From Phycisphaerae bacterium (GTDB lineage: Bacteria; Planctomycetota; Phycisphaerae; SM23-33), in the NCBI GenBank assembly GCA_011050235.1, contig DRGC01000022.1, forward strand, positions 62,001 through 126,000: a stretch of 64,000 nt of DNA. The letters run 5' to 3'. Below the pieces are notes generated by a model. It did no database searches. It saw only the letters and a list, made by a program, of their open reading frames with translations, and was not told the DNA's origin. Positions 36,779-64,000 of the stretch are shown in pieces; positions within the stretch are counted from its first letter, which is position 1; every line of letters starts with the position of its first letter. Made by a program: the position numbers and the translations under genes.

Positions 36779-36806
36779 AAGGCCGTCTTCAGACGCATGC
36801 CTCTCA

Positions 36807-44312: not shown

Positions 44313-44342
44313 TTGACACGTCAAGAGCCAGCGCAGTAGAGT
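44313..44342 (+). promoter_or_regulatory. Candidate promoter and palindromic operator of the hydrogenase cluster
   Basis: TTGACA (44313-44318) and TAGAGT (44337-44342) are spaced 18 bp. TTGACA forms part of a perfect palindrome TTGACACGTCAA (44313-44324). Around 44236-44248 a second perfect palindrome, ACGTGAAGCACGT, sits in the A/T-rich leader. Both could be binding sites for a redox regulator; neither matches a consensus I can name with confidence. The start of the first gene lies 18 or 75 bp downstream, depending on which start is used. Confidence 0.45.
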
Positions 44343-44416
44343 GAGACGATAGAGACAGGTTGACGGGGGGGGCTTTTGTCGACCCGACTGTTATTCGTTT
44401 CACAGCAGGTGCTGCA

Positions 44417-46269: not shown

Positions 46270-46283
46270 GAATCGAGCGACGG

Positions 46284-47915: not shown

Positions 47916-48466
47916 TGGAATCGGCAACGCACAAACCGGTGGACGAGCGCGTCCTGATCAACCTGGACCGGTGCATCGAGTGCGGCTCGTGCGCCGCGGC
48001 GTGTCACTACAGTCACACCAACATGCCGTCCGTCGACGCCGCTCGGACCGGGTGGGCCCTGCTGCCCGTGATCTGCCGCCAGTGCAAGGCCGCCTCATGC
48101 GTGGACACCTGCCCCGCCGAGGCCATGATCTGCGACGACGACGGTGTGGTGCGCCGCCGCCTGTTCCGGTGCATCGGCTGCGGCTCCTGCGCCAAGGCGT
48201 GCCCGTTCGGCGTGATCCCCACGCAGCTCGGCGGGGTGCCGACGGGCTTCCGCAGCAACGAACGCATGAGCGGCCATCAGATCGCCAAATGCGACCTGTG
48301 CTTCGACCGCACCGCCCCGGAGGCGCCCACGCGCGGCGTGCCGCGCTGCGTAGCGGCGTGTCCATCCGGGGCGCTGACGTACGCCGACGAGCACCGGGCC
48401 AAGGAGCTCGGCATCGAGACCATCGGCGGCAGGACGACGGCCGACAACCCATACAAACGTAGGTAA
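47912..48466 (+). CDS. HycB/CooF-like polyferredoxin (four 4Fe-4S clusters)
   Basis: 184 residues with four Cys clusters: CIECGSCAAACHYSH (21-35), CRQCKAASCVDTC (55-67), CIGCGSCAKAC (about 87-97) and CDLCF plus CVAACPSGAL (about 127-155). This arrangement is that of HycB/HydN/CooF, electron-transfer subunits linking a catalytic subunit to a group 4 hydrogenase. It starts at ATG 47912, overlapping the TGA of the previous gene. It likely carries electrons from the flavin/molybdopterin-like part to the NuoI/NuoB-like clusters. Confidence 0.88.
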   Translation: MMESATHKPVDERVLINLDRCIECGSCAAACHYSHTNMPSVDAARTGWALLPVICRQCKAASCVDTCPAEAMICDDDGVVRRRLFRCIGCGSCAKACPFGVIPTQLGGVPTGFRSNERMSGHQIAKCDLCFDRTAPEAPTRGVPRCVAACPSGALTYADEHRAKELGIETIGGRTTADNPYKRR

Positions 48467-48469
48467 GCG

Positions 48470-49423: not shown

Positions 49424-49854
49424 CGACCTGGGCATTGCGGAAGTCGTTGTGGGTGTATCACGTCAACGCCGGCGCCTGCAACAACTGTGACATCGAGGTG
49501 CTGGCACTGCTGACGCCGCGGTTCGACATCGAGCGATTCGGCATGATCCTGGTCGGCTCGCCGCGGCACGCCGACGTGTTGGCCGTCACCGGCGTATGCA
49601 CCCGCCAGATCATGCCGCGCCTGCAGGAAGTTTACATGCAAATGCCCAAGCCCTGCGTGGTGCTGGCCATCGGCGCCTGCGCCAACGCCCAGGGCATCTT
49701 CACCGAAGCGTATCACATGGGCGCGGCCGTCGACGAGACCATCAAGGCCGTCGACCCCAGCGCCATCATTATCTACGTGCCCGGCTGTCCGCCCAAGCCG
49801 GAAGCCATGATCGCCGCAGCCGTCAAGGGCATGGAGTTCCTCAAGACACTGTGA
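49414..49854 (+). CDS. Group 4 hydrogenase small subunit (NuoB/HycG/MbhJ-like)
   Basis: 146 residues. GACNNCDIEVLALL (about 20-33), VTGVCTRQ, AIGACANAQGIF (about 84-95) and YVPGCPPKPEAM (about 118-129) give the four Cys of the proximal (N2-type) [4Fe-4S] cluster. It is the small single-cluster form found in group 4 hydrogenases and complex I, not the three-cluster small subunit of other [NiFe] hydrogenases. The start overlaps NuoH by 10 bp. It is the last electron donor to the [NiFe] site. Confidence 0.9.
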   Translation: MALTTWALRKSLWVYHVNAGACNNCDIEVLALLTPRFDIERFGMILVGSPRHADVLAVTGVCTRQIMPRLQEVYMQMPKPCVVLAIGACANAQGIFTEAYHMGAAVDETIKAVDPSAIIIYVPGCPPKPEAMIAAAVKGMEFLKTL

Positions 49855-49884
49855 CGACGGGAGACTGATGCAAGGAGCTTGGAC

Positions 49885-50436
49885 ATGAGTGTGACGCAGA
49901 CAGGCATTGACGTGCCGCTGATGGGGTTTGTCGGCGAGGTGCTGGAGCGCCTCGGCGACGTCGTTGTCGCCGTCGAACAATGCGAGCCTCGCCGCGGCAT
50001 CGCGCGGGTCGACCCGGCGAGAACCGTCGAGGCCGCAGAGAGAATGTTCGCCATGGACGGCTCCCGGCTGGTGACGGCCACCGGCCTGGAAGTGCGCGAC
50101 GGGATCGACGTGCTCTATCATTGGGCGCTCGAGCCGCAAGGCGTGGTGGTGACGCTGAAGGTCCTGGCCACCCGGCCGGACCTAACGCTCGACTCGCTGG
50201 CGAACGTGCTTCCGGCCGCCAACTGGATCGAGCGCGAGTTGCACGATCTGCTCGGGGCGAACTTCCGCGACCACCCCGACATGCGACGACTGCTGCTGGA
50301 CGACACCTGGCCCGAGGGTTTGCATCCCCTCCGCAAGAGCTTCGACCAAATCAAGGATCGGCCGCCCCTGCCGGCCAATCAGTCGCCGCCGGACGTGGAC
50401 GTGGACGTCAAGGCGCACCGGGGGGATCACTCATGA
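49885..50436 (+). CDS. Group 4 hydrogenase 30-kDa subunit (NuoC/MbhK-like)
   Basis: 183 residues from ATG 49885 (AAGGAG 7 bp upstream); a TTG two codons earlier is ignored. TRPDLTLDSLANVLPAANW and the signature ERELHDLLGANFRDHPDMR (about 114-132), then LHPLRKSF, mark the complex I 30-kDa family. It has no cofactors and packs against the large subunit. It overlaps the large-subunit gene by 4 bp (ATGA). The N-terminal half is variable and unrecognised. Confidence 0.87.
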   Translation: MSVTQTGIDVPLMGFVGEVLERLGDVVVAVEQCEPRRGIARVDPARTVEAAERMFAMDGSRLVTATGLEVRDGIDVLYHWALEPQGVVVTLKVLATRPDLTLDSLANVLPAANWIERELHDLLGANFRDHPDMRRLLLDDTWPEGLHPLRKSFDQIKDRPPLPANQSPPDVDVDVKAHRGDHS

Positions 50437-51614
50437 GCCACAAGACGATTATCAACATTGGCCCGTTCCACCCGCTTCAGGAAGAGGCCGAGTTCTTTCA
50501 GCTTCACGTGGACGGCGAGACCGTCATCGACGTGGACGTCCGCCTCAGCTACAACCACCGCGGCATCGAGAAGCTCGACGAATCGAAGACCTTCGATCAG
50601 GTGCCGTTTGTGGTCGAGCGGGTCTGCGGCATTTGCTCGGCCAGCCACCCGCTGGCCTACGTCCAAGCGGTCGAGGAGATCGCCCACGTCGACGTGCCCG
50701 AGCGATCGCTCTATCTGCGGACCATCGTCAACGAACTAGAACGGCTGCACTCGCACCTGCTGTGGGTGGGTCTGGCCGGCCACTTCCTGGGGTACAACAC
50801 TGTGTTCATGTGGGCGTGGAAGTATCGCGAGCCCGTCATGGACGTGTTGGAGACCGCCACCGGCAGCCGGGTCAACTACGCCAACGCCAAGATCGGCGGC
50901 TCGCGGCGCGATATCTCCGACGAGCAGCTCCGCGAGATCGACAAGGTGGTGGGCGAACTTCATCGGCCGCTGGACATGCTGACCAACGCGGTGCTGGACG
51001 ATCCCGTCCTGCACGCGCGGCTGAAGGGCGTGGGCATCTTGAGCCCCGAGGCGGCCAAGGCCTACGGCGCCGTCGGGCCGACCGCCCGCGGCAGCGGTGT
51101 GCCCATCGACGTCCGCAGGGACGATCCCTACGCGGCCTACGATCTCGTCGACTGGGACGTGGTAACCGCTCCCGGATGCGACGTATTCGGCAAGGCGGTG
51201 GTGAGGCTGCTGGAGTGCTACGAGGCCATCAAGATCATCAAGCAATGCATCAAGCAGATTCGCCCCGGGGAGATCGACGCGAAGGTCGAGTCAATCCCGC
51301 CCGGAGAAGGCATCGGACGCGTCGAGGCCCCACGCGGCGAGACGTTCCACTACGTGCGATCCGACGGGTCCAACCGGCCGGTGCGGCACAAAATTCGGGC
51401 GCCAAGCTACGTGAACATTCCGACCTTCAAGGCCTCCTGCATCGGCCAGCAGATTGCCGACGTGGCGATTACGCTGGCGGCCGTCGACCCGTGCTATTCG
51501 TGCACCGAGCGGATGTGTCGTGTCGTCGACGCCGACACGCACGTGCAGGTCTATCAGTTTGCAGACCTGGTGAGACTATCGCAGCAAAAGACCGACCGCA
51601 TGCGGCGATCGTGA
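50433..51614 (+). CDS. Group 4 [NiFe] hydrogenase large subunit (HycE/NuoD/MbhL-like)
   Basis: 393 residues. Both Ni-binding CxxC pairs are present: ERVCGICSASH (about 62-72, L1) and DPCYSCTERM (about 352-361, L2, the group 4 form). NuoD homologues of complex I lack them, so this is a hydrogenase, not a NADH dehydrogenase subunit. NHRGIEKL and NELERLHSHLLW are conserved in the family. After L2 there is a 32-residue tail that the HycI-type protease encoded at 58381 may remove during NiFe insertion. Site of proton reduction or H2 oxidation. 74 bp precede the next gene, the largest gap in the cluster. Confidence 0.92.
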   Translation: MSHKTIINIGPFHPLQEEAEFFQLHVDGETVIDVDVRLSYNHRGIEKLDESKTFDQVPFVVERVCGICSASHPLAYVQAVEEIAHVDVPERSLYLRTIVNELERLHSHLLWVGLAGHFLGYNTVFMWAWKYREPVMDVLETATGSRVNYANAKIGGSRRDISDEQLREIDKVVGELHRPLDMLTNAVLDDPVLHARLKGVGILSPEAAKAYGAVGPTARGSGVPIDVRRDDPYAAYDLVDWDVVTAPGCDVFGKAVVRLLECYEAIKIIKQCIKQIRPGEIDAKVESIPPGEGIGRVEAPRGETFHYVRSDGSNRPVRHKIRAPSYVNIPTFKASCIGQQIADVAITLAAVDPCYSCTERMCRVVDADTHVQVYQFADLVRLSQQKTDRMRRS

Positions 51615-51688
51615 CCGACGCGGCGCGTGCGAATGAACGACATTGTTTGGGACAACCGAGCAGACGCCGAGGACTCGGCGGGTGAAGC

Positions 51689-53638
51689 ATGAACGAACTA
51701 GCTGACCAATTGGCACATCCTCTCTTGCTGCCGATCGTCATTGCGTTCGTGGCAGGAGCCGCAGCTTACGTTCTGTCTCGCCTGTGGCCCATGGGGTGCC
51801 GCCTGATCGCACTGGCGGCCAGTCTGCTCGTCCTGGGCAGCGGCATCTGTATCTTCTACCGAGGCGACGAGCTGGTGGGCTGGCAAGGCCTGACGTTCGG
51901 CTGGCACTGGATGACGTTAACGCCCGACATCTCGCTAACGGTCAACCTGGCTACAACCATGCTGGGCATGGTGGTGGTGATCGGCTCGGCGGCCTTTGCG
52001 CTGCTGATTACGATCTACAGCCTGCGGGCCATGCGGGGCGAGTACTGGGAGGGCAAGTACTACGCCTATCTGATCTGGGCGCTGGGCGGGGCCTGCATCG
52101 TGGGCCTGGCCGAGAATCTCCTGGTGCTGCTGGTCGGCTGGGAGATCGTCACGCTGATGCTGTTCCTGATGATCAGCCAGGGCCCGCGCGACGCCAAAGC
52201 CGGCGGCGCCAAAACCTACGGCATCTTGGGCTTTGCGGATGCGTGCTTGCTTCTGGCGGTGGCGCTATTGGCGACGCTGGAAGGCGGCTCGGCCAACTGG
52301 TCGCTCTCGAAGGTCCATGACGTCGGTTCTCTGGGCTCGTTGGGTTACGTGATCTACGCGCTGATTCTGGTTGCGGCGCTAGCCAAGGCCGGGGCGATTC
52401 CGCTGCACACGTGGATACCAGCCATCGCCAAGGATGCGCCAACGCCGGTGATGGCCTACCTGCCGGCGGCGCTGGATAAGTTGCTGGGCATCTACCTGCT
52501 GGCGACCCTCTCACTGCGGATGTTCGTGGTCGATTGGCCGCTGCGGGTGGTGATGATGGTCATCGGCGCGGTGACCATCCTGGCGGCAGTGCTGATGGCC
52601 ATGATGCAGCACAACCTCAAGCGCCTACTCTCGTTCCACGCGGTCAGCCAGGTCGGCTACATGGTCTTGGGGATCGGAACGGGCACGGTCATCGGCATCA
52701 TCGGCGGCCTGTTCCACATGATCAACAACGCGATCTACAAGTCCAACCTGTTCTTGATGAGCGGCGCCATTCGACGGGCGACTGGCACGGACGAGATCGA
52801 GAACATGGGCGGCCTGGCGCGGTTGCTTCCGGTGACGTTCGTGTGCGGATCAATCTCGGCGGTGGCCATTTCGGGCATGCCGCCGTTCAACGGCTTCGTC
52901 AGCAAATGGTTGGTCTATCAGGGCACGCTGCAGGTCCGACAGACCTCGCCCCCCCTGGCGGCGGCGCTGGTGACGGTGGCCGTCTTCGGCAGCGCCCTGA
53001 CGCTAGCCAGTTTTGTCAAAGTCATGTATTCGGCTTTTCTGTCGCCGGCCCCCAAGGGCGCCGCCTATGTCACCGATCGGCCTAAGGAGAGCGTCTTCAT
53101 GGCCGTGCCGATGATCATCCTGGCCCTCGCCTGCGTGATCCTGGGTCTCTGGCCAGGGCTGATGATCGACAACGTTCTGGCCCCGGTCGTAGGGGCTGGG
53201 GCAGACGACGTAACCACTGCCAACCTCGCCGTCCAAACCGACGGGCTTGGCTACTGGAGCGCCACGCAGACGACCGGACTGATCCTCATTGGCCTCTTGC
53301 TCGGTCTGATCTTCGTCTTCCTGTTCACCTGGAAGAAGCGTATCCGCGTCGTTCGCCCGTTCCTGGCCGGGGAGGTGGCCGGGGAGGCCGACGACCGCTG
53401 GCGCGTGCCGGGCACGCACTTTTACGAAACGATCGGCAAACTGCCGATCATCGGGGCGCTACTGAAACACGGTGAAGCCGGCGCCATGGACCCATACCAC
53501 TGGTCGCAGCGCCACGGCAACACCTTCGTGCAGTTGCTGCGCCGGCTGCACACCGGACTGATCAGCTTGTACGTCGCGTGGGCGCTGGGCGGGCTGGTCA
53601 TCATCCTGATATATCTGCTGCTTGCGGCAAGGACATAA
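51689..53638 (+). CDS. mrpA: Antiporter-like subunit, MrpA N-terminal/NuoL type
   Basis: 649 residues, about 16 transmembrane helices. Conserved proton-channel motifs are LLVGWEIVTLMLFLMI (Glu on TM5) and ALAKAGAIPLHTWIPAIAKDAPTPV region (Lys on TM7, split here as AKAGAIPLHTWIP), plus HNLKRLLSFHAVSQVGYM (His/Lys on TM8). It ends with a long cytoplasmic loop and extra C-terminal helix as in NuoL/MrpA. The MrpA C-terminal domain is not attached but encoded by the next gene. It opens the ion-pumping membrane arm of the complex. Ribosome site GGTGAAG is weak. Confidence 0.88.
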   Translation: MNELADQLAHPLLLPIVIAFVAGAAAYVLSRLWPMGCRLIALAASLLVLGSGICIFYRGDELVGWQGLTFGWHWMTLTPDISLTVNLATTMLGMVVVIGSAAFALLITIYSLRAMRGEYWEGKYYAYLIWALGGACIVGLAENLLVLLVGWEIVTLMLFLMISQGPRDAKAGGAKTYGILGFADACLLLAVALLATLEGGSANWSLSKVHDVGSLGSLGYVIYALILVAALAKAGAIPLHTWIPAIAKDAPTPVMAYLPAALDKLLGIYLLATLSLRMFVVDWPLRVVMMVIGAVTILAAVLMAMMQHNLKRLLSFHAVSQVGYMVLGIGTGTVIGIIGGLFHMINNAIYKSNLFLMSGAIRRATGTDEIENMGGLARLLPVTFVCGSISAVAISGMPPFNGFVSKWLVYQGTLQVRQTSPPLAAALVTVAVFGSALTLASFVKVMYSAFLSPAPKGAAYVTDRPKESVFMAVPMIILALACVILGLWPGLMIDNVLAPVVGAGADDVTTANLAVQTDGLGYWSATQTTGLILIGLLLGLIFVFLFTWKKRIRVVRPFLAGEVAGEADDRWRVPGTHFYETIGKLPIIGALLKHGEAGAMDPYHWSQRHGNTFVQLLRRLHTGLISLYVAWALGGLVIILIYLLLAART

Positions 53639-53641
53639 CCC

Positions 53642-54244
53642 ATGGGCGTGGAATTGCTGATTGTCATCCTGATCGTGTTCATGCTGGCTGCGGCTGTGAT
53701 CGCGCTGGAGGCGGACGATCTGCTCAGTTCGGTGATCGCAGTCGGAGCGGCCGGCTTTGCCCTGAGCGTCATCGACCTGCTGGTCGGCGCGCCGGACTTG
53801 GCCATCACCCAAGTGGTGGTCGAGGTGATCATGCTGGTGCTGCTGATTCGCGCGGTCCTCAAGCGACGCGACGAGGCGGCGGCCATCTCCAGCGACCTGC
53901 TGCGGACGGGCCTGTGTCTGTTGGCCTGCGGCGTGCTGCTGGCGGTGGTGTTCTTCGCGTTGGGGGGCTTGGCCGGCGATGACGCCCCCGACGGCACGAT
54001 TCCACCGTTCGGCGAGCCCGTACTGGCCAATGGCAAACGGGCGGCCGTTCCGCCTGGAGTAAGCAAGCAATACCTCGAGCAGACCGTCAGTGAGACCGGC
54101 GCCGTCAACGCGGTGACCGCGATCCTGCTGGATTTCAGAGCCTACGACACGTTGGGCGAGGCGACGGTGATCTTCGTTTCCGTCCTGGGCGCGTATGCGC
54201 TGCTCAGGCGGGTCGGACGACGCAAGGAGGGCCTGTCGCCATGA
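53642..54244 (+). CDS. MbhD-MbhE-like fusion (MrpA C-terminal and MrpB N-terminal domains)
   Basis: 200 residues. Helices at 1-70 (LIVILIVFMLAAAVIALEADDLLSSV; APDLAITQVVVEVIMLVLLI) are the DUF4040/MbhD-type unit. After a linker with LLACGVLLAVVFFALGG, the stretch NAVTAILLDFRAYDTLGEATVIF (about 148-170) is the MbhE/MrpB-type end with the conserved DFRxxDTLGE motif. In Pyrococcus Mbh these are two proteins; here they are one. It provides the linker between NuoL-like and MrpB-C-like subunits. 3 bp after the upstream gene and 4-bp overlap with the next. Confidence 0.82.
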   Translation: MGVELLIVILIVFMLAAAVIALEADDLLSSVIAVGAAGFALSVIDLLVGAPDLAITQVVVEVIMLVLLIRAVLKRRDEAAAISSDLLRTGLCLLACGVLLAVVFFALGGLAGDDAPDGTIPPFGEPVLANGKRAAVPPGVSKQYLEQTVSETGAVNAVTAILLDFRAYDTLGEATVIFVSVLGAYALLRRVGRRKEGLSP

Positions 54245-54690
54245 AGCAACATCACGGCATGACGTCCATCGTCAAGAACACCGCCCGGCTGGTGAGCGGC
54301 TTCATTGCGGTGTTCGGCCTGTACGTGGCGCTGACGGGCCACTTGGCGCCGGGCGGCGGCTTTGCCGGCGGGGTGATCCTAGCGGCCTCGGGCGTGCTGA
54401 TCGTGCTGGCGTTCGGCCGGCGGTTCTCGGCCAAGGTCATCACCGACCGCGCCGTGCACATCGCCGATGCAGCCGGGGCGGGCGTGTTCCTGCTGGTGGC
54501 GCTGCTGGGCTTCCTGGCCGGGGCCTTTTTTGCGAACTTCATCCCCACGGGCGAGCCGCATCATCTGAAGTCCGGCGGGGCGATTCCGATTTCTAACCTC
54601 GCCATCTTCGTCAAGGTCGGCGCGGGCTTGCTGGGAGCGTTCATGGCGCTGTCGGCCTTCCGCCTGACCAGTAAGGAAAGCAAGACCTGA
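54241..54690 (+). CDS. mrpB: MrpB/MbhF-like antiporter subunit
   Basis: 149 residues with four transmembrane helices. FGLYVALTGHLAPGGGFAGG (about 25-44) is the MnhB/MrpB hallmark (GHxxPGGGFQGG). The N-terminal KNTARLVSGFI and the last helix GAGLLGAFMALSAF fit the family. It is part of the Na+/H+ antiporter module and the ion path of Mbh-type complexes. ATGA overlap upstream, 15 bp to the next gene. Confidence 0.9.
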   Translation: MKQHHGMTSIVKNTARLVSGFIAVFGLYVALTGHLAPGGGFAGGVILAASGVLIVLAFGRRFSAKVITDRAVHIADAAGAGVFLLVALLGFLAGAFFANFIPTGEPHHLKSGGAIPISNLAIFVKVGAGLLGAFMALSAFRLTSKESKT

Positions 54691-54705
54691 CACCGGGAGT
54701 CGAGC

Positions 54706-55062
54706 ATGGGCATAGCCATCTACATGTTGGCGTTCGCGTTGCTGGTGGTGGGCATTTACGGCGTCATTGCTAAGCGAAACGTCATCAAGATCATTCTGGG
54801 CATTCTGATCATCGACTACGCGGTGAACATGCTGCTGGTGCTGGTAGGCTACCGCCGCGACGGGGTTGCCCCGATTCTGTCCGAAGGCCAGGACGCCAAG
54901 GCCTGGGCGGCGACCTCGGTCGACCCGCTGCCCCAAGCGATGGTGCTAACCAGCATCGTCATCGGCCTGGGCCTGACGGCGCTGATGGTGGCGATGGCCA
55001 TCCGCCTGTACCAGAAGTACGGAACGTTCGACATGAACGAGATTCGAAAACTGAAAGGCTAG
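54706..55062 (+). CDS. mrpC: MrpC/MbhG-like (NuoK-like) subunit
   Basis: 118 residues, three transmembrane helices. KRNVIKIILGILIIDYAVNMLLVLVG and QAMVLTSIVIGLGLTALMVAMA are typical of MrpC/NuoK, with Glu-free but conserved NMLL and QAMVLTAIVI motifs. It sits between MrpB and MrpD genes as in canonical mrp operons (order A-B-C-D). CGGGAG precedes the ATG; 2 bp to the next gene. Confidence 0.9.
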   Translation: MGIAIYMLAFALLVVGIYGVIAKRNVIKIILGILIIDYAVNMLLVLVGYRRDGVAPILSEGQDAKAWAATSVDPLPQAMVLTSIVIGLGLTALMVAMAIRLYQKYGTFDMNEIRKLKG

Positions 55063-55064
55063 CG

Positions 55065-56660
55065 ATGGACGCACTGGTTCCACTTCTGGTGGTCGTGCCG
55101 TTCGGCGCCGCGTTCATTCTCGTCGCGCTGGCCAACTTGCCGGGCCTGGCGCGGCGACGGGCGGAGGGCGGCGAATCGGCCGGCGATCTCGCCTCGGCGC
55201 CCGGGCCACGCCGCCACCGCGTCCTTTCTCTGCTGGCGTGTGCGGCCGTGCTGGCCAACTTCATCATCGCGCTGGCGCTGCTGCGGGCGGATATCGGCCA
55301 CATCTACGTCGGCGGCTGGGGCGACGAGAAGTCCGCCCTCGGCATCGAGTTGGTCTGTGATGGGCTCGCCAAGCTGATGGTCGTGATCATCAACATGGTT
55401 GCCTTGGTCTCCATCATCTTCTCCTGGTCGTACATGCGGCGGTTCACCAAAGTCTGGCTGTTCGAGGCCCTGTTCCTGCTGATGACGGGCGCCATGAACG
55501 GCGTGGTGTTGGCCGGCGACCTGTTCAACATGTACGTGTTCCTGGAGATCGCCGCGATCTCATCCTACGCCCTGGTGGCCTTTGGCTGTGAGGCGGAGGA
55601 ACTGGAGGCGGCCTTTAAGTACCTGATCCTTGGCACGGTCGGGTCGGCCTTCATCCTGGTCGGCGTGACGATCCTCTACTCGCTGACCGGGCACCTGAAC
55701 ATGGCCAAGGTGCACGAGCTGCTGCCGGCCGTCGGGCAGACCAGCCCGGCGGTCCTGCTGGCGGCGGCAGCCCTGCTGGGTGGACTGGCCCTCAAGGCGG
55801 CGATGGTGCCGTTCCACGCCTGGCTGCCCGACGCCCACCCCTCAGCGCCGGCGCCGATCTCGGCCATGCTGTCGGGCGTGCTGATCAAAGCCGCCGGTAT
55901 CTATGCCTTGGCCCGCATCGTCTTCAACGTGCTCGGGCCGACCACTGAATACGCGGCCATCCTGATGGCGCTGGGCGTTGTGTCGATGGTTGTCGGCATG
56001 TTCCTCGCCCTGGGCCAACAGGACTTCAAGCGTCTGCTCGCCTATAGCAGCATTTCCCAGGCGGGCTACATCGTGCTGGCCTTCGGCGTGGCGGCGCATC
56101 TGCTGGCCACCGGCGGCGACCGCAACATCGCGGGGTTGTGCATCTTCGGCGGGCTGTTCCACCTGTTCAACCACGCAGCCTTCAAGAGTCTGTTGTTCCT
56201 GTCGTCGGGCTCGATCGAGCAGCAGACGGGCACCCGCATGCTGAAGGAAATGGGCGGGCTGACCCGCCGCATGCCGGTGACCAGCTTCTGCTGCCGCATC
56301 GGTGCGCTGAGCATCGCGGGCGTGCCGCCGCTGAACGGCTTTTTCTCCAAGCTCATCATCATTATCGGCTTGGCCCTGGCGGGCCAGCTGGTTTTGGCTG
56401 CGATTGCGGCCGGCGTGGCTGTCGGCACATTGCTGATGTACGTGAAGGTGCAACGATATGCGCTCGAAGGCGAGCCGTCTGGCGCGGCTGCCAACGCTCG
56501 CGAAGCCCCGGCGATGATGTGCGTGGGCTTGGTCCTTCTGGCGGTGGTGTGCGTGGTGGCGGGCCTGGCGTTGCTGCCGTTACGAGATGTGGTGTTCGGC
56601 CCGGCTGAGGACGTTCTGCTCGGCGCGGCCGGTAAACTGACCGGAGGATTGACACCATGA
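55065..56660 (+). CDS. mrpD: MrpD/MbhH-like (NuoN/NuoM-like) antiporter subunit
   Basis: 531 residues, about 14 transmembrane helices. MYVFLEIAAISSYALVAFG (Glu on TM5) and LGGLALKAAMVPFHAWLPDA (Lys on TM7) are the ion-channel residues of this family, and QQDFKRLLAYSSISQAGYI (Lys on TM8 with His nearby) is also kept. C-terminal helix ends LLPLRDVVFGPAEDV. Second ion-translocating subunit of the complex beside the MrpA-type subunit at 51689. ATGA overlap with the next gene. Confidence 0.92.
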   Translation: MDALVPLLVVVPFGAAFILVALANLPGLARRRAEGGESAGDLASAPGPRRHRVLSLLACAAVLANFIIALALLRADIGHIYVGGWGDEKSALGIELVCDGLAKLMVVIINMVALVSIIFSWSYMRRFTKVWLFEALFLLMTGAMNGVVLAGDLFNMYVFLEIAAISSYALVAFGCEAEELEAAFKYLILGTVGSAFILVGVTILYSLTGHLNMAKVHELLPAVGQTSPAVLLAAAALLGGLALKAAMVPFHAWLPDAHPSAPAPISAMLSGVLIKAAGIYALARIVFNVLGPTTEYAAILMALGVVSMVVGMFLALGQQDFKRLLAYSSISQAGYIVLAFGVAAHLLATGGDRNIAGLCIFGGLFHLFNHAAFKSLLFLSSGSIEQQTGTRMLKEMGGLTRRMPVTSFCCRIGALSIAGVPPLNGFFSKLIIIIGLALAGQLVLAAIAAGVAVGTLLMYVKVQRYALEGEPSGAAANAREAPAMMCVGLVLLAVVCVVAGLALLPLRDVVFGPAEDVLLGAAGKLTGGLTP

Positions 56661-57142
56661 GATGGTTGCTATGCCTGGTGACGGTGTTTGCAGTGTGGAT
56701 GCTGCTGTTCTGGTCGGTCGATCCGTGGGTGATCGGGTCCGGGGCGTTCTTCTCGCTGATCATCGGCTCGTTGCTGGGAGCGGTGTTCCCCGAGGAGATG
56801 CAGATGTTCCTCAATCCGCGCCGGTGGCTGTTCTTCGCGCTGTACCTGCCCTACTTTTTCTTCTACTGCCTCCGGGCCAACGTTGACGTGATGTTCCGCG
56901 TGATCCATCCCGACGTGCCCATTCGCCCCGGCATCGTCAAGGTCCGGACCACGCTGACGAGCAGCATGGGAAAGACGTTCCTGGCCAACAGCATTACGCT
57001 GACGCCGGGAACGCTGACGGTCGATATTCACGGCCAGGATCTATACATCCACTGGATCAATATCGATACCGACGACGCGCAGAAGCGCTCAGCCGAGATT
57101 TGCGGCCGATTCGAGCCGCTGCTGAAAAGGATCTTCGAATGA
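56657..57142 (+). CDS. mrpE: MrpE/MbhA-like subunit
   Basis: 161 residues. Two transmembrane helices near the N-terminus, then FALYLPYFFFYCLRANVDVMFRV and the conserved region PGIVKVRTTLTSSMGKTFLA with NSITLTPGTLTVDI (about 101-129), which is diagnostic of MrpE. Membrane subunit with a cytoplasmic C-terminal domain; forms part of the Mrp antiporter. Overlaps the neighbouring genes by 4 bp on both sides. Confidence 0.9.
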   Translation: MRWLLCLVTVFAVWMLLFWSVDPWVIGSGAFFSLIIGSLLGAVFPEEMQMFLNPRRWLFFALYLPYFFFYCLRANVDVMFRVIHPDVPIRPGIVKVRTTLTSSMGKTFLANSITLTPGTLTVDIHGQDLYIHWINIDTDDAQKRSAEICGRFEPLLKRIFE

Positions 57143-57405
57143 CCCCGTTTGAACAAATCGCGTTCGCCGTGCTGATTCTCTCATCGGCCCTGTGCCTCTA
57201 TCGCGTCGGCCGGGGGCCAACCGCGCCGGACCGAACGGTAGCCATCGACATCCTCGGCACGCTCGTGGTGGGGTTCTGCTGCCTGATGGCCTGGCGCACC
57301 GGCCGCGACTACTACATCACCATCGCCATCGCCTGGGCCCTGATCAGTTTCGTCGGCACGCTGGCGCTCGCGAAATATCTCGAAGGCAGGAGCTACGATG
57401 CTTGA
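57139..57405 (+). CDS. mrpF: MrpF/MbhB-like subunit
   Basis: 88 residues, three transmembrane helices. RVGRGPTAPDRTVAIDILGT (about 22-41) is the conserved MrpF motif (RGPTxxDRVVAxD). ATG 57139 overlaps the TGA of mrpE. It is a small structural subunit of the Na+/H+ antiporter arm. Confidence 0.9.
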   Translation: MTPFEQIAFAVLILSSALCLYRVGRGPTAPDRTVAIDILGTLVVGFCCLMAWRTGRDYYITIAIAWALISFVGTLALAKYLEGRSYDA

Positions 57406-57793
57406 ACAGATTGCCATGTGGATTATGGGTGTCGGCCTGGCGTTCGACCTGTTCGGCTGCATCGGATTGGTGCGACTGCCCGACGTGTACAACCGCGCCC
57501 AGGCGGCCACCAAGTGCGTCACACTGGGAACGTGCATGATCCTGTTGGGCGTGGCGCTTCGGGCCTTCGGCGCCCCAGACGGGGCCATGGCCGTCAAAGC
57601 GCTCCTCTGCGCGGCGTTCGTCCTGCTGACCAGTCCCGTCGCCGCCCATGCCGTCTGTCGGGGGGCTTACCTCTCCGGCGTGAAGCTCTGGGAGGGTAGC
57701 GTGGAAGACAGCTTCTCCGAGCGGGCCGAAGAGATCCGACAGGAACAGACAACGGAAGGAAGTGTCGACCGTGAAGAAACCGAAACTGCGTGA
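57398..57793 (+). CDS. mrpG: MrpG/MbhC-like subunit
   Basis: 131 residues with three transmembrane helices. FDLFGCIGLVRLPDVYNRAQAATKC is the MrpG signature (GLxRLPDxYxRxHA), preceded by a short helix and followed by LLCAAFVLLTSPVAAHAVCRGA. The C-terminal 30 residues are hydrophilic and acidic. ATG 57398 has AGGAG 6 bp upstream and overlaps mrpF by 8 bp. It completes the A-G set. Confidence 0.9.
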   Translation: MLEQIAMWIMGVGLAFDLFGCIGLVRLPDVYNRAQAATKCVTLGTCMILLGVALRAFGAPDGAMAVKALLCAAFVLLTSPVAAHAVCRGAYLSGVKLWEGSVEDSFSERAEEIRQEQTTEGSVDREETETA

Positions 57794-58388
57794 GCTGAAG
57801 GAGGCCCTCCGGGCCGTCATCGTCGGCCCGGTGACTACCAAGTACCCCTTCGAGCCGCACACGCCGCCCGACGGGTTTCGGGGCAAGCCGGAGTTCCATG
57901 AGGATGACTGCATCGGCTGTGGGGCTTGTGCGGAGGTGTGCCCGTCCCTGTCGATCAAGGTGCTGGACATGCCCCAGTCCGACCCGCCCAAACGCCGCCT
58001 GGAACTGCGATACGACAAGTGCGTGTTCTGCGGCCAGTGCGAGCTGAACTGCACCACCAAGGAGGGTGTGAAGCTGTCGAAGGAGTTCGACCTGGCGGGC
58101 CTGGATCGTAGCGAGTTCGTGGAGTCCATCGAGCACGACTTGGTGATCTGCGAGGTCTGCGGGGCCATCGTCGGGACCATCAAGCACCTGCGCTGGGTGG
58201 CCGAGCAACTCGGCGCCAAGACCTACGCCAACCCCACGCTGATCATACTGGCCGATGGGAGCATGAAGCTGTCAACCCCCGATGCGGGGCGGCCGGGCGA
58301 GCCGACGCTGGCGCGGTCCGACATGATGCGCGTCATGTGCCCGGCCTGCCGACGGACCTCCATCGTCCGCGAATTGTGGGGTGAGTGA
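57771..58388 (+). CDS. NuoI/HycF-like ferredoxin with extra C-terminal CxxC pairs
   Basis: 205 residues from GTG 57771 (GGAAGGA 10 bp upstream; a GTG at 57762 is too near that site). CIGCGACAEVCPSLSI (about 47-62) and CVFCGQCELNC (about 84-94) bind two [4Fe-4S] clusters, as in NuoI/MbhN. The second is slightly atypical (CELNCTT instead of CxxxCP). Beyond the ferredoxin part, CEVCG (about 126-130) and CPACRR (about 190-195) form two further CxxC pairs that could make a zinc ribbon or another cluster; this is not usual in NuoI. It overlaps mrpG by 23 bp. Probably carries electrons to the NuoB-like subunit. Confidence 0.85.
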   Translation: MKKPKLRELKEALRAVIVGPVTTKYPFEPHTPPDGFRGKPEFHEDDCIGCGACAEVCPSLSIKVLDMPQSDPPKRRLELRYDKCVFCGQCELNCTTKEGVKLSKEFDLAGLDRSEFVESIEHDLVICEVCGAIVGTIKHLRWVAEQLGAKTYANPTLIILADGSMKLSTPDAGRPGEPTLARSDMMRVMCPACRRTSIVRELWGE

Positions 58389-58941
58389 TACCGTGACCCC
58401 ACGTAGCCACACGCCCGCCAGGGAGGGAATCACGGTTCGTCGGTCGATCTATGTGTTGACCCCGGACGATCTGTACGCGTTGTTGCGCCCACTGTTGACG
58501 TCCGCCGCCGTCATTGTCTGCATCGGCAGCGAACTCCACGGCGATGACGCCGCCGGCGTCATCATCGGCCGCGAATTGACCGACCAGGTCCCTTGGCCCA
58601 TCCTTAAGGCCGGGCTCGCGCCCGAGAGCTTCGTGGTCAAGATCGCCAACTACCGCCCGGACACGGTGATCCTGATCGACGCGGTCGACTTCGGGGGTCG
58701 GGCGGGTGAGGTGATCCTGGTCGACGTCGACCGCATCGTCGGCGTCGCCGCCGGCACGCACGGGCCCAGTTTGATGCCGTTTGTCGAAGCGCTACAGTTG
58801 ATGCATCGCTGCGACCTGGTCGTGCTGGGCATTCAACCGTTGGAGACCCGGGTCGGGGACGATCTCAGTCCCCCGGTCCGACAGGCCGTCTCGCGCGTCG
58901 TGGGGGCGATCCACGCCCTGGCCGACGACGACGGGAGTTGA
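58381..58941 (+). CDS. Hydrogenase maturation protease (HycI/HybD family)
   Basis: 186 residues. CIGSELHGDDAAGVIIG (about 46-62) is the GNxLxGDDG-type N-terminal motif with the first Ni-sensing acidic residue; ILIDAVDFGGRAGEV (about 98-112) provides the Asp; GTHGPSLMPF (about 126-135) provides the His. These peptidases remove the C-terminal peptide of the large subunit after NiFe insertion. GTG 58381 overlaps the ferredoxin gene by 8 bp; the first 30 residues are not conserved, so a later start is possible. Its presence supports functional [NiFe] assembly; hypA-F genes are not in the window. Confidence 0.9.
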   Translation: MSDTVTPRSHTPAREGITVRRSIYVLTPDDLYALLRPLLTSAAVIVCIGSELHGDDAAGVIIGRELTDQVPWPILKAGLAPESFVVKIANYRPDTVILIDAVDFGGRAGEVILVDVDRIVGVAAGTHGPSLMPFVEALQLMHRCDLVVLGIQPLETRVGDDLSPPVRQAVSRVVGAIHALADDDGS

Positions 58942-58961
58942 ACCCCGGAAGGAAAACCATC

Positions 58962-59366
58962 ATGAGCGACATCCCAAAAGTCCTCATCGCCGACGATGAG
59001 CAGACCTGCATCGACTTCGTGCGGGCGTCTTTGTCCGACATGCCGTGCGAAGTTCTGGAAGCATTCGACGGGCAGCAGGCCCTCGACGTCGCTCGCAAAC
59101 ACCACCCGCAATTGATCATTCTCGATATTCAGATGCCGGAGCGCAGCGGCTTCGACGTGTTCGTGGAACTCAAGAAGGACGAGGCCCTGGCGTCCGTTCC
59201 CGTCATCATGATGACCGCGCTTGGCGAACGGTTGGGCCTGCAGTTCGATGAAAAAGAAATGGGCGAGTACATGGGCACCGAGCCGGAAGCCTACATCGAC
59301 AAGCCCGTCGACGGGGCCTCTCTGAAGGAAACCGTTGCCCGACTGCTCGAACAGGCCCAGGCTTGA
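58962..59366 (+). CDS. Stand-alone response regulator receiver protein
   Basis: 134 residues from ATG 58962 (GGAAGGA 7 bp upstream). VLIADDEQ provides the acidic pocket, LIILDIQMPERSG the phospho-accepting Asp, PVIMMTAL the Thr/Ser, and IDKPVDG the Lys. There is no output domain. It ends the hydrogenase cluster 20 bp after the protease gene and before a terminator, so it may report on or control the cluster through an unlinked histidine kinase or protein partner. A regulatory link to hydrogenase is inferred only from position. Confidence 0.82.
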   Translation: MSDIPKVLIADDEQTCIDFVRASLSDMPCEVLEAFDGQQALDVARKHHPQLIILDIQMPERSGFDVFVELKKDEALASVPVIMMTALGERLGLQFDEKEMGEYMGTEPEAYIDKPVDGASLKETVARLLEQAQA

Positions 59367-59395
59367 ACTCAAGCACTCGCCACGAGCGCAGAAGA

Positions 59396-59432
59396 AAAGC
59401 CGGCCGCAACACGCAGTCGCAGCCGGCTTTCC
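59396..59432 (+). terminator. Terminator of the hydrogenase cluster
   Basis: AAAGCCGG (59396-59403) and CCGGCTTT (59423-59430) form an 8-bp stem, extended by the following C-G and T-A pairs, with a 19-base loop and flanking T/A tracts on both sides. It could act in both directions. It starts 29 bp after the response-regulator stop at 59366. The same hairpin also precedes copy C at 43063. Confidence 0.6.
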
Positions 59433-59444
59433 TTGGCTTCGACC

Positions 59445-59493
59445 ACGCGCGAGAGGATTCGGACCTGTAACCTTCGGCTCTCTAGACGCGCGC
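59445..59493 (-). other. tRNA-Arg-like remnant lacking the D arm
   Basis: On the minus strand the 49 bp start with an acceptor-like GCGCGCG and end with CGCGCGT, which pair over 7 bp with one G-U. Between them lies an anticodon-loop-like part, a short variable region and a T arm of 5 bp with the seven-base loop TCCGAAT. Copy C at 43105-43168 has CTACGGA as its loop, which would be an ACG anticodon (Arg). The 5' anticodon strand and the D arm are absent, so this is not a working tRNA gene. Confidence 0.55.
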
Positions 59494-59687
59494 CTGGAAG
59501 CGCGGTAATTCCATATCTGACATGCAGTTATGAGTTTGTGCGATCAATGCAGGGCTGCAGAACGCGGCAAAATGAGGCAATTTTCGACACGTCGGTAGGC
59601 TCAGGACAAGCCGGTTGATGCCCGGGCTCGTCCCGCGTCACAGGCAAGCTCGATCACTTCACTGAAGGCGTCGGCAGCCGATGCATC

Positions 59688-61220
59688 TCAGCCACCAAGT
59701 GACGCTTGTCCGGCGGCAACGCCGTTGGTGGTTGCGAGATCCCAGGCGTCGAGGGAGTGGATGGTGGTGGGGCCGCCTCGGCTGAAAACATGCACGCCGA
59801 CGGCGTCGGCGCGGGTGGGGTAGATGCGCTGGGTGATGCACTGGCGGCCGTTCGCGTAGACCTCCAGGATCGACTTGTCGATGAAGATGCGAAGGTGTAG
59901 TTTCTCGCCTTCCTTGAGATCAAACGGGGCCTGCTGGATGCGCACGTCCTCCTGCCAACCGGCCAACATCATCTTGTAGCCATAGAAAACATTACCGCTG
60001 AGGCTGGCGTGGTCGGCGTCGACCGAGAGCGTACCTTCCGTGGGGTCAAAGATGATGCCCGTTCGCTCCTGGCGGTCTTCGCTGACCCGCACCCACAGGC
60101 CGAACTGGCCCCGCTCGGGGGCCGTCGCCTCGACCGACAGCTCCATCACGTCGCCGTTGATGCCCGCCACCGCGCGCTCCTGGCCGTCGTCGACCACAAG
60201 GTCGGTCTTCCCGCGATAGTTGCTGCGGAGCTGCTCAAACTCAGCCGGCGGGTTGATTAGCAGTTGGCCGTCGGCGTCCAGGGCCAACACGCGCGGCATG
60301 GTCATCACGCCGATCGCCTCTGACCAGAAGTCTTCGCCACGGCGTTGGTCGATGACCCACGCCCAGAAGATCCGGCGGCCCCGGTCGTCGAGCAAGCTTT
60401 CGGGAGCGAAGCATGACCCGCCGGGGAAGTTCATGCGGTGGTGCTCCTCAGGAACGAACGTGCCGTTGTCGTATCGCCCCAGGTAGTACCGCGCCCCGCG
60501 CGGGTGGCTGATGCACGAGAGCATGTAGCGGTCGCCGATGGGGAAGAAGTCCGGACACGCGCAGTCTTCTTCTTCGCCGGTCCAGTGCGGGTTGGGCGCG
60601 TAGAACTGGCGGAGGTACTCCCAGTTGACCATGTCCAGCGAGCGGAACAGGTACAGCGTGTCGCGAATGTCGTGCGGCTTGACCTTGGCGCCCAGAGCGA
60701 CGTAGGCGGTGTCGCCCTCGACCCATGGGTGCGGGTCGAACACGTTGTAGACCCCCCAGCCGGGGCCTCCCTCGACGGGCTCGGCTATCACCGGGTTGTG
60801 GGGGCTCTTGGTCCAGACGATCAGATCGTCATCCTCGCTCGTGGCGATGCACGTGCCGCAACCACAACCGTGGTAGATGAGGGTCGGCACGCCGTCGGGG
60901 CTGATGCATGCCCCGCCGGAGAAGATGCCGACTTCCGGGTCGCCCTCAGCCGCAGCCAGCGCCGTCGGGTGAAACGTCCAGTGCAGCAGGTCGGTGCTGG
61001 AGGCATGCCCCCAGCAGTGCCCACCATGGGGCAGCCCCGGGTCCTGGAAGATGTAGAACAGGTGGTACTTGCCCTTCCAAAAGATCGCCCCGTTGGGATC
61101 GAACGGCATGGCCACCCCTTCGGGGGCGATGAAGTGATAATGCGGCGCCTGCGCGTCGCTGGCGACACGCTCGGCTACGATGGCGCGCTTGGTGTCGGCG
61201 TCGGCCTGGTGTGCTTGCAT
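59688..61220 (-). CDS. Glycoside hydrolase family 32-like enzyme with altered catalytic region
   Basis: 510 residues from ATG 61220 (AAGGAAGAGG upstream); the frame is open a further 9 residues. N-terminal five-bladed propeller with MPFDPNGAIFWKGKYHLFY (about 38-56): DPNG supplies the nucleophile Asp. YNVFDPHPW stands where FRDP is expected. DCACPDFF (about 212-219) replaces the ECPD motif, so the general acid/base Glu appears to be Ala. A C-terminal beta-sandwich (about 380-505) with IFIDKSILEVYANG is intact. GH32 enzymes cleave beta-fructosides. It may have another substrate or another acid residue. No signal peptide. Confidence 0.8.
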   Translation of the reverse strand: MQAHQADADTKRAIVAERVASDAQAPHYHFIAPEGVAMPFDPNGAIFWKGKYHLFYIFQDPGLPHGGHCWGHASSTDLLHWTFHPTALAAAEGDPEVGIFSGGACISPDGVPTLIYHGCGCGTCIATSEDDDLIVWTKSPHNPVIAEPVEGGPGWGVYNVFDPHPWVEGDTAYVALGAKVKPHDIRDTLYLFRSLDMVNWEYLRQFYAPNPHWTGEEEDCACPDFFPIGDRYMLSCISHPRGARYYLGRYDNGTFVPEEHHRMNFPGGSCFAPESLLDDRGRRIFWAWVIDQRRGEDFWSEAIGVMTMPRVLALDADGQLLINPPAEFEQLRSNYRGKTDLVVDDGQERAVAGINGDVMELSVEATAPERGQFGLWVRVSEDRQERTGIIFDPTEGTLSVDADHASLSGNVFYGYKMMLAGWQEDVRIQQAPFDLKEGEKLHLRIFIDKSILEVYANGRQCITQRIYPTRADAVGVHVFSRGGPTTIHSLDAWDLATTNGVAAGQASLGG

Positions 61221-61703
61221 GCCTCTTCCTTCGTCCCCCAGATCCAATTGACCGCTAGGACTTGAAGTGTAGTCTGCATTCGGCCGTCCGTCTACTGGCC
61301 CTCGTTGGAATGACCCTTCTATGCGTCCATGACGAGGAGATGTGTGGCCGTCGAGAACACGCTCTTCCGGCGCCCTGATGCGGCGTCCGTCTTGAGCTCA
61401 ACGAAGTGGGCCTTACGTCGATCCTTGGCAAACAGGACGCCCCGACAAGCCACTTCCGGCCGCGATCTCATCGGTCAATGCGTGCGAAAGGTGTTCCACT
61501 TGGCCGTATCAAGGCCTCTCGTGACGCAAGAGGCGCAGAGGTATGCAGCCGACCGCACACCAGACATTGAGGATTGATCCTGCCCTGCGCATAGGTGCAG
61601 GGCAAGCTGTTTTTCCTTCATTTTCGGTGTTTCCGCGTTTACCTTCTCTCTGGAGGCCAGTGGCGTGCGGCCGTTCGTTGATGCTGATACGCGCGGAGCC
61701 GAT
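61221..61703. other. 483-bp intergenic region with one hairpin
   Basis: Divergent space between the GH32-like gene and the URO-D-family gene. GCCCTGC (61582-61588) and GCAGGGC (61597-61603) form a 7-bp stem with TTTTT just downstream at 61610. It may be a terminator or attenuator on the plus strand. An 82-codon frame at 61329-61577 has no ribosome site or family features. The promoters of both genes are presumed here but not recognised. Confidence 0.45.
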
Positions 61704-62870
61704 ATGCAGAAGAACACACAATCGACCACAGGCCAGACGTCCGACCTGCAGCGTTTCCTGGCCTGCATGGAATATGAGTCCTCTGACCGGCGCCCCAACC
61801 ACGAGCTGGGCGTGTGGGGGCAGACTCGTGAGCGTTGGGAGCAGGAGGCCGGGGAATCGGTCAAGGACTTCACATGGGACTGGTTTGCCGGTGAGGAAGA
61901 TCTCGGGCTGGATCGCCGGGAGTACATCGACGTCAATTACGGTTTCATTCCTCCTATTGAGTATGAAGTGCTCGAGGAGACAGACGAGTATGTCTTCGCC
62001 CGCATTCCCACCGGGGCCATCACCAAGGCTCTGAAGGCGGGCACGAGCTACGGCACGCGCTGGTGCATGGATCAGTACCTGGAGTTTCCCGTCAAAGAGC
62101 CTGAGGACTTCGCGGCCGTCAAATCCCGGTTGGCCGCATCTGCGCCGGGGCGCTGCCCGGAGCACCTCGACAGCCGGCTGGCGGAGTGGGAAAGGCGGAC
62201 CTGTCCTCTCGTTCTTGGCCGAAACTGCGCGGCCAATGGTTTTTACTGGCGCGCACGTGAGTTCATGGGAACGGAGAACCTGTCACTTGCGTGGTACGAC
62301 CAGCCCAAGCTGATGCATGAGATCATGGAGTTCTTCGCCGACTTCATCATCGAGACCAGCCGGCCGATCCTGAAAAGGATACAGGTGGACTGCTTCGTCC
62401 TGAACGAAGACATGGCCATGAAGGGCGGCCCGCTCCTTGGGCCCGAGACATTCCGCACGTTCATCTTCCCGCACCTCAAGAGACTCATCGAGTTCTTCCG
62501 TTCCCACGGCACCAAATACATCGCCGTCGATAGCGACGGCGATCCGACGCCGCTGATCCCCCTGCTGCTCGATGCGGGGGTGGACACGATCTGGCCCATT
62601 GAACGCGCCTCGGAGATCAGCCCCCAGCGGTGGCGAAAGCAGTTCGGCCGCTCACTTCGCCTGTCGGGCGGGGTTGATAAGCGTGTGCTCTCACGCGGAA
62701 AGGATGCAATCCGGTCGCACCTCCGGGAGCTCATTCCCCTCATCGAAGAAGGCGGTTTCATTCCGACAGTCGATCATACCGTTCCGCCGGACGTTTCATG
62801 GGATGCGTTTCGATACTACCTGGACATGAAGCGGGCATTGCTCAGCGGGGATTTTGAAGCCCTGGCGTGA
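61704..62870 (+). CDS. Uroporphyrinogen decarboxylase (URO-D) family protein
   Basis: 388 residues from ATG 61704 (GGAG 5 bp upstream). A GTG at 61665 with GGAGG 8 bp upstream is an alternative and would add 13 residues. The family fold is suggested by LQRFLACMEYESSDRRPNHE, FFADFIIETSRPILKRIQVD, LNEDMAMKGGPLLGPETFR (about 247-265), YIAVDSDGDPTPLIPLLLDAG and PTVDHTVPPDVSWD (about 350-363). It lacks the uroporphyrinogen-binding FxGxPxT/D hallmark of HemE, so it belongs with the methyltransferase-like URO-D relatives common in anaerobes. The substrate is unknown. Confidence 0.78.
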   Translation: MQKNTQSTTGQTSDLQRFLACMEYESSDRRPNHELGVWGQTRERWEQEAGESVKDFTWDWFAGEEDLGLDRREYIDVNYGFIPPIEYEVLEETDEYVFARIPTGAITKALKAGTSYGTRWCMDQYLEFPVKEPEDFAAVKSRLAASAPGRCPEHLDSRLAEWERRTCPLVLGRNCAANGFYWRAREFMGTENLSLAWYDQPKLMHEIMEFFADFIIETSRPILKRIQVDCFVLNEDMAMKGGPLLGPETFRTFIFPHLKRLIEFFRSHGTKYIAVDSDGDPTPLIPLLLDAGVDTIWPIERASEISPQRWRKQFGRSLRLSGGVDKRVLSRGKDAIRSHLRELIPLIEEGGFIPTVDHTVPPDVSWDAFRYYLDMKRALLSGDFEALA

Positions 62871-63004
62871 ACGCACAGACTGCGTTGCTGAAAATGGCCA
62901 CCATCATCTCCCGGGTCATGTCGCCGTGACGCCAGAAGGCCGTTTGCGTACAATGCCCTCAGCGTAAGTCCTGGCAGCCGCCGCCTGCGATAGGATGCTG
63001 CTGC

Positions 63005-64000
63005 ATGAACGAACAGGTCACAAGCCAAGCCGAGAGCGCCGATGGGATCTATTCTCGCGCAGCAGAGGGCGCCTATACAATTCCGCCCGAGCTCAAGAGA
63101 ATCAGAAAGACAAGGACGTCCAGCAATCTGAGCTGGATCGTCAACCCCGAGGCCGTCGGCCTGGACCTCGATAACTGGCAATCCGATCCATCCCGGATCA
63201 TCTATCATGGCGGCAAGTACCACATGTGGATGATCGATATGGATCGCACGCGCTGCGCCGAAGCGCGAGAGTGGAGCGATCCCCATTTCTTCGAAACACC
63301 TGAAGGTCGCGACTTCAGGCCCGATTCGTCCCGGATCCTGTACTTGAGTTCCCAAGACACGCACCATTGGACGGCCCACGGCCATCTCCCGCTCGGCCCC
63401 GAAGGCTCGTGCTATGACCTGGTGTTGGAACAGGTCAACGTCGTGTTCCACGAAGGGAAGTTCTACCTGTTCACCGAGGTGTGGACGACCAATGTCGAGA
63501 AATACGGATATCGGCCGGTCGGCATCGCCTGCCTGATGGCCGATTCGCCCGAGGGGCCTTGGACGAAGCCGCCGGGAGTGGACGTGTTGATCACACCCGA
63601 ACATGACGGCGAAAGTTGGGACAGCAACCGGGTCTTGAATCCGAGGCACGTGCAGCTCAACGGCAAATGGTTGATGTACTACAAAGGGGGCAAGGACGGG
63701 CCCACCCAGAACGGTCTGGCCATTGCCGATACCATCACCGGGCCGTACCGGAAGATCGACGGCAACCCGATCATGATCGGGCACGGGCATTTCTGCTGGC
63801 GGTACAAGCACGGGATGCTCATGATCCCGAACTACGACTTCGACGAAGACGCACGGTGGATTCACTGGTCCGAAGACGGCATCCATTTTGCGCCGATCCA
63901 GAAGAGCCCCGACGTGTTTCTGTTCGGCTCGCTCTACGTTCCCTACGACCCCATGTTCGGCGAGCCGCAAACCGCCGGACCCACGACCGAGTTCTGGGGA
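63005..64000 (+). CDS. GH43/GH117-like glycosidase (3' end outside window)
   Basis: 332 codons from ATG 63005 (TAGGA upstream) run off the right edge. The N-terminus NPEAVGLDLDNWQSDPSRII and KYHMWMIDMDR is a five-bladed propeller start with an Asp in SDPS (residues about 61-64). VLEQVNVVFHEGKFYLFTEVW and NPRHVQLNGKWLMYYKGGKDG contain Glu residues at spacings like GH43/GH117. GH117 enzymes release anhydro-galactose from agar oligosaccharides; GH43 enzymes act on arabinose/xylose linkages. Which one applies cannot be settled here. It lies 134 bp after the URO-D-family gene. Confidence 0.72.
   Translation, partial: MNEQVTSQAESADGIYSRAAEGAYTIPPELKRIRKTRTSSNLSWIVNPEAVGLDLDNWQSDPSRIIYHGGKYHMWMIDMDRTRCAEAREWSDPHFFETPEGRDFRPDSSRILYLSSQDTHHWTAHGHLPLGPEGSCYDLVLEQVNVVFHEGKFYLFTEVWTTNVEKYGYRPVGIACLMADSPEGPWTKPPGVDVLITPEHDGESWDSNRVLNPRHVQLNGKWLMYYKGGKDGPTQNGLAIADTITGPYRKIDGNPIMIGHGHFCWRYKHGMLMIPNYDFDEDARWIHWSEDGIHFAPIQKSPDVFLFGSLYVPYDPMFGEPQTAGPTTEFWG

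Follow-up and report, generated by a model that had tools for sequence, protein, structure and literature searches.

Repeated tRNA-Arg junctions in a Planctomycetota genome as probable attachment-site scars of an integrative-element family

Introduction

Tycheposons are tRNA-associated integrative elements that have tyrosine recombinases and ecological cargo, and D5-type primase-helicases are known from satellite-like elements. The tycheposons of Prochlorococcus are named in PMC10872708. In the Islander work (PMC4383910), an island is delimited by an intact tRNA gene and a displaced 3′ fragment of the same orientation, and a class with anticodon-centred crossover is listed; an integrase is demanded for each member, and four tandems of three or more were recorded in 2168 genomes. 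In Dehalococcoides, multiple tandem islands bounded by repeats of the 3′ end lie within 100 kb downstream of a single RNA gene, ssrA, and 15 islands without integration modules were considered potential cis-mobilizable elements or relics that have become fixed (PMC3146451). tRNA fragments originating from mobile elements are also a recognised annotation problem (PMC9897764).

The window, that is, the whole stretch of 64,000 nucleotides analysed here (C22:62001-126000; window coordinates are C22 positions minus 62000), belongs to a 4.0-Mb genome in 98 contigs. Its dispersed repeats are interpreted here, with a probability of about 0.9, as attachment-site scars (attR-type junctions) of an integrative-element family in this class of Planctomycetota, the named relatives of which are Phycisphaerae/Phycisphaerales. 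A preliminary description of the same DNA had already proposed that the 3′ half of a tRNA gene, together with its terminator, was carried to several sites as an integration scar, and this was essentially right.

A one-sided array beside one tRNA gene

A repeat search of the window returns three 153-nt copies at 32749, 43134 and 59459 and a partial fourth copy (29963, 55 nt) in the same orientation. The preliminary description, which gave 32733, 43061 and 59394, a partial at 29965 and a single orientation, had placed them correctly. Whole-genome searches add copy E at C22:126155-126326 (match at C22:126181, 181 bp past the window end) and, with a model of the arm alone, one orphan arm on contig C17. 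The intact tRNA-Arg(ACG), located by ARAGORN on the minus strand at C22:139429-139501, 13.4 kb past the window end, is the sole tRNA on C22. Two doubts raised beforehand are thereby removed, namely that the family might stop at four copies, which the count across the genome exceeds, and that the genome might lack an intact tRNA-Arg with the GCGCGCG acceptor, which is present.

All five copies, A to E, are found 3′ of this gene, in the same orientation and 13-48 kb away from it, and five of the six arms of the genome fall in one 48-kb, one-sided, single-orientation array. The copies match their own profile with E = 1e-9 to 1e-51 and the arm-only model, in the whole-genome search, with E = 1e-12 to 1e-26, both having been built partly from these same copies. 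A chance origin of the repeat family is excluded. Nor is the geometry of the array attributable to chance, since the concentration of five of six arms in that stretch, combined with their orientation, can be put, as a rough estimate, at below 1e-9. Copies A and B are the farthest from the tRNA and the most degraded, as expected if older insertions get pushed outward; copy A is an arm fragment without a tRNA half (29963..30017, minus strand; 48.7 and 38.7 bits with arm models R1 and R2, R2 being the improved version). Scars B-E sit entirely between called genes.

Several copies of a short tRNA-containing unit and an orphan arm on C17 could also be produced by a tRNA-derived repeat that spreads by itself in the manner of a SINE or MITE, and a SINE-like nature had indeed been suggested. 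This reading was rejected and is highly improbable: the copies stand on one side of the parent tRNA in a single orientation, the tRNA joined to the arm is, across other genomes, one of four species and is invariably joined at the anticodon loop, and relatives have this arm at the end of elements that encode an integrase.

Anatomy of the junctions

When the minus strand is aligned against the intact tRNA, copies B-E show the common module order noted earlier. An element side of about 105 bp is followed by 15-30 variable bases and then by tRNA sequence, which begins at GTCTACGG in the anticodon loop and continues through the T arm and the acceptor, and in C and D through the terminator as well. 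In each of the four copies that bear tRNA sequence, the alignment places the change from element to tRNA at one point, in the anticodon loop.

In copy D (minus strand, as for all scars), the element-side arm (GGCTTGTCCTGAGCCTACCGACGTGTCG ... TTGCCTCATTTTGCCGC ... CATAACTGCA; alignment A5) occupies 59507..59612 and scores 84.7 and 74.6 bits with R1 and R2. The tRNA-Arg(ACG) 3′ half, which extends from the anticodon loop as far as the acceptor, lies at 59444..59486 and equals the intact tRNA at 39/45 positions; the terminator hairpin belonging to the displaced 3′ end, at 59394..59434, aligns with the terminator of the intact gene. Copy C comprises an arm at 43182..43290 (91.0 and 73.6 bits), a tRNA half at 43104..43162 that is equal to the intact tRNA at 44/45 positions bar a 15-nt insertion in the T arm, and a terminator hairpin at 43061..43098. 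The arm of copy B, at 32797..32905 (93.7 and 72.6 bits), is joined by a degenerate tRNA half at 32735..32776 (35/45 positions).

On the element side of the switch point, no copy has any likeness to the tRNA D arm or to the 5′ anticodon stem, so the "missing" D arm is a junction and not a deletion. A loss of the D arm by deletion between GT-rich repeats, as once suggested, is wrong: the Arg-type copies all switch at GTCTACGG, the point of the integrase crossover. The copies are thus recombination junctions composed of arm, anticodon-loop crossover and tRNA-Arg 3′ half. Alignment bears out the terminator hairpin that had been seen in both C and D after the tRNA-like 3′ end. The GC-rich tail reported to follow the T arm is located elsewhere: GCCTGCCGACGTGTCGC (given earlier as GCGACACGTCGGCAGGC) precedes the tRNA half on the minus strand. 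The 5′ GCGCGCG that gives the look of an acceptor stem, ascribed to each copy, is confined to C and D. This stretch is part of the junction's element side and is conserved neither in E and B nor in other elements, Arg-type scars of further genomes included.

The pairing of GCGCGCG with CGCGCG in C and D might also point to a functional tRNA without a D arm, or to a tRNA-like small RNA. That candidate was rejected as well and has very little probability: the pairing is gone in B and E, the T loop is mutated and the T arm is interrupted in C and E. Neither ARAGORN nor Rfam matches a tRNA within the window, and fold z-scores of -0.86, 0.49, 0.90 and 1.40 reveal no conserved tRNA-like fold.

Kinship of the scars

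A T-loop change from TTC to TCC, which the intact tRNA lacks, is common to scars B-E, and the 15-nt T-arm insertion, which would destroy a tRNA, is common to C and E. It follows that the intact tRNA was not the direct source of all the scars; some, to judge by these private changes, arose from other scars, through insertion at scars or duplication. In a tree, the arms of this genome form one clade (support 0.98) with the pairs C+E and A+B.

The clade, its two pairs and the insertion common to C and E would also be expected if one scar came from integration and the others from that scar, through ordinary segmental duplication in the chromosome. This is nonetheless improbable, considering that the likeness ends at the arm and terminator ends and not within flanking genes, that the arms of B-E are just 67-80% identical to one another, and that the same junction, made with an integrase, is present in the relatives G005, G120 and G199. 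Empty-site comparison is uninformative here, as the tRNA-Arg loci of relatives have too little flanking synteny in common. A paralogous tRNA-Arg (loop CTTCGGA; L061 9979-10051, C79:98679-98751) has a terminator very like those of tRNA-Arg(ACG) (C22:139386-139501) and of scars C and E.

The arm in other genomes

The arm-only model is built on sequence only and includes no tRNA sequence. With it, the arm is present in 19 of 397 genomes of the class, and the R2 version upholds the arm loci with up to 86 bits; in a phylum-wide draw, arm matches occur in 3/392 genomes, all of the same class. Searching for the arm core TGCCGACRYGTCGC as a pattern, with one mismatch allowed, is too loose for copy counts, and an extra exact TGCCGACRYGTCGC match on C57 was dismissed as not an arm.

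At 18 of 28 loci, a T-arm motif is located no more than 95 nt after the arm, mostly at exactly +41 nt, compared with 3.8% of control windows. By their anticodon loops, the tRNA halves next to arms belong to Arg(ACG), Met(CAT), Ser(GCT) and Arg(CCT). Four Met-type scars, L125 (G175), L129 (G314), L134 (G362) and L144 (G300), have tRNA halves that end in or just past the T loop (GGTTCG) and stop before the acceptor end.

Within the arm itself, a GGCTTGTC-n-GGCTTGCCGG pair is accompanied by TTTGCCGCAT-like units of 10 nt, repeated in tandem. Alignment gives exactly one unit fewer for the arms of copy E and of the two G110 scars (G110a/b). The TTTGCCGCAT array probably represents arm-binding sites of the integrase.

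Relatives with whole elements and integrases

Among 40 genomes (the own genome and relatives), two matches share a contig in G005 (JAPLNA010000067), a Planctomycetota MAG of the same family. One is an intact tRNA-Arg(ACG); the other, 13.8 kb off and identically oriented, is the same arm followed by a tRNA-Arg 3′ half (E = 4.6e-17). Between tRNA and scar are encoded a tyrosine integrase, the reading frame of which is broken, a D5/DUF5906 primase-helicase, an HTH protein and unassigned proteins. In G120, about 15 kb hold an intact tRNA-Met, an integrase, a D5/DUF5906 helicase, a Toprim primase, an arm and an exact 46-bp tRNA-Met repeat, whereas about 21.5 kb in G199 hold an intact tRNA-Ser(GCT), an integrase, an arm and an exact 60-bp repeat. 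The exact tRNA 3′-half repeats of 45 (G005), 46 (G120) and 60 bp (G199) start at tRNA position 32-34.

The three integrases form one subfamily with 48-57% identity, and their conserved residues agree with the tyrosine-recombinase catalytic set; the D5/DUF5906 primase-helicase is common to G005 and G120. The subfamily is rare, being found in 8 of 397 class genomes, four of which also have the arm (hypergeometric P = 2e-4 across the 397). In G094 (L225) and G258 (L228) the integrase is directly beside a tRNA-Ser(GCT) gene, and G175 (L230) has a partial integrase match at a contig end with a tRNA-Ser(GCT) gene on the same contig; beside the integrase in these three genomes, the arm models detect no arm of this type.

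Beyond the terminator of the intact tRNA, G120 (GGCTTGTCCTAGGCTTGTTTTGGCTTGCCG) and G005 each have a second arm-like motif, which looks like the opposite arm of attP. In G110, of the same family, two scars stand 5.7 kb apart with arm motifs at both ends, around sulfatase-related/DUF4838-type genes and with no integrase between them.

The G120 element also encodes a DUF4062/NB-ARC-like/TPR protein (L170 4673-8251), which has a combination of domains common in defence genes and is possible anti-phage cargo. Among the phage-collection matches listed, satellite-phage integrases, such as that of Streptococcus satellite phage Javan279, are the closest to that of G120 (only about 27% identity over 96% of the length), and a scan of IMG/VR with the integrase alignment gave a single match of 57 residues. 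In these comparisons, the elements found here give no sign of belonging to a described phage or satellite family.

Intervals between the scars

C22 contains no tyrosine recombinase or integrase (PF00589), on which ground an integron cassette array was rejected, and no homolog, relics included, of the G005 integrase or primase. The G005/G120 integrase subfamily is absent from the whole genome, and the mobile phase is for this reason deduced from relatives. Interval A-B has a TPR gene. Interval B-C (32906..43010) carries HEAT-repeat, HD-domain and cadherin-like/DUF4347 genes and no integrase. Interval C-D (43291..59393) holds an operon for an Mbh/Mrp-like membrane complex related to complex I and NiFe hydrogenases (44360-58941) and a rubrerythrin-like gene, again with no integrase. 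The first part of interval D-E (59613..64000), likewise without an integrase, contains GH32, uroporphyrinogen-decarboxylase-like and GH43-like genes. Between E and the tRNA lies a Tad-type pilus operon.

The homology of G008 to interval C-D covers 44360-58941 and ends inside scars C and D, bar one stray 85-aa match. The hydrogenase-type operon is nevertheless unusable as proof of recent transfer, because it is found in 15 of 35 family genomes, away from arms where the neighbouring DNA is readable. GC is uniform, with no foreign signature, and the cargo of the intervals looks host-like.

Just beyond the terminator of copy C, a PWM scan finds a probable opposite arm (GGGCGTGTCTAGGCCTGCCGG, 43011..43031, minus strand) with 13.2 bits, the eighth best on C22, at the place predicted from G005 and G120. 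Its identification as an opposite arm is suggestive, not proven, and interval B-C may accordingly have both its ends. The integrase-less intervals have arm and scar at one end, and only those at copy C and in G110 have such a motif at the other.

These observations bear on the tentative possibility that the intervals are non-autonomous units still movable in trans by an integrase of the G120/G005 subfamily, which is a stronger version of the scar interpretation and not its opposite. The integrase-less G110 interval with arm motifs at both ends, the arm-like motif on the far side of copy C, the hydrogenase-type operon that fills interval C-D and the private changes common to scars, which fit recombination at scars, all favour such cis-mobilizable cassettes; the lack of a subfamily integrase in the genome and the degeneration of A and B count against them. 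An unlikely and more far-reaching idea is a cassette system in which integrase-less units with host operons (hydrogenase-type complex, Tad pilus, polysaccharide degradation), bounded by conserved arms and tRNA 3′ halves, would be shuffled in trans by rare relatives with an integrase, which exchange one tRNA target for another and keep the arm.

Further repeats and one RNA motif occur in the window. Seven tandem 168-nt units (72-91% alike; 40790-42097) are inside the gene of a 1368-aa cadherin-domain/DUF4347 protein. An 84-nt direct repeat (27110-27193 and 33035-33118; 90% identical, 5.9 kb apart) flanks scars A and B, outside the arm, and a 124-nt direct repeat (17261-17384 and 20626-20749; 88% identical) has its units 3.4 kb apart. 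An Acido-Lenti-1 RNA (RF01687) matches at 2323-2367 (plus strand) with 41.5 bits, over the gathering cut-off.

Proposed origin and comparison with known systems

According to the attachment-site scar interpretation, the tyrosine integrase of the element would join attP, by recombination, to a tRNA gene at its anticodon loop. This attP would comprise the conserved arm, an anticodon-loop core and a copied tRNA 3′ half together with a terminator. Integration would rebuild the tRNA using the 3′ half brought by the element, and the old 3′ half with its terminator would be displaced to the far end, beside the arm. Repeated rounds at tRNA-Arg(ACG), or at existing scars, would generate the one-sided array A-E. 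In this genome the elements would be without an integrase of their own, whether through loss or from the outset, and would now enclose ordinary genes of metabolism. Tandem islands that have decayed or are non-autonomous are the best reading of the array.

The element family is apparently undescribed, while the class of mechanism is well known; the literature searched, mostly without subscription journals, holds no description of the arm or of the family. What is new are instances: the family, a conserved arm with changing tRNA targets, and an integrase-less array. The arm model provides a DNA signature for a tRNA-integrating family in a poorly studied class, and it finds islands after the integrase is lost. 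Because a change of tRNA target (Arg, Met, Ser) leaves the arm recognisable, integrase retargeting becomes testable. The scars also explain why unrelated operons adjoin in the window.

With the tDNA islands of Islander, the elements have in common the island-end signature, the anticodon-centred crossover and, in relatives, the tyrosine integrase. A tRNA and a same-orientation 3′-side fragment running from the crossover to the 3′ end are found in the window's array as well as in G005, G120 and G199. An integrase between tRNA and fragment is present in those three relatives and absent from the window's array, which the Islander integrase filter would consequently reject; five scars in one array are also rare. 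Tycheposons are likened by description alone, and the resemblance to satellite phages such as Javan279 consists of the distant integrase similarity given above and a D5-type primase-helicase. The closest published parallel is offered by the ssrA islands of Dehalococcoides, which are likewise tandem and one-sided with integrase-less members, but which involve serine recombinases and tmRNA where the relatives studied here have a tyrosine integrase and tRNA anticodon loops.
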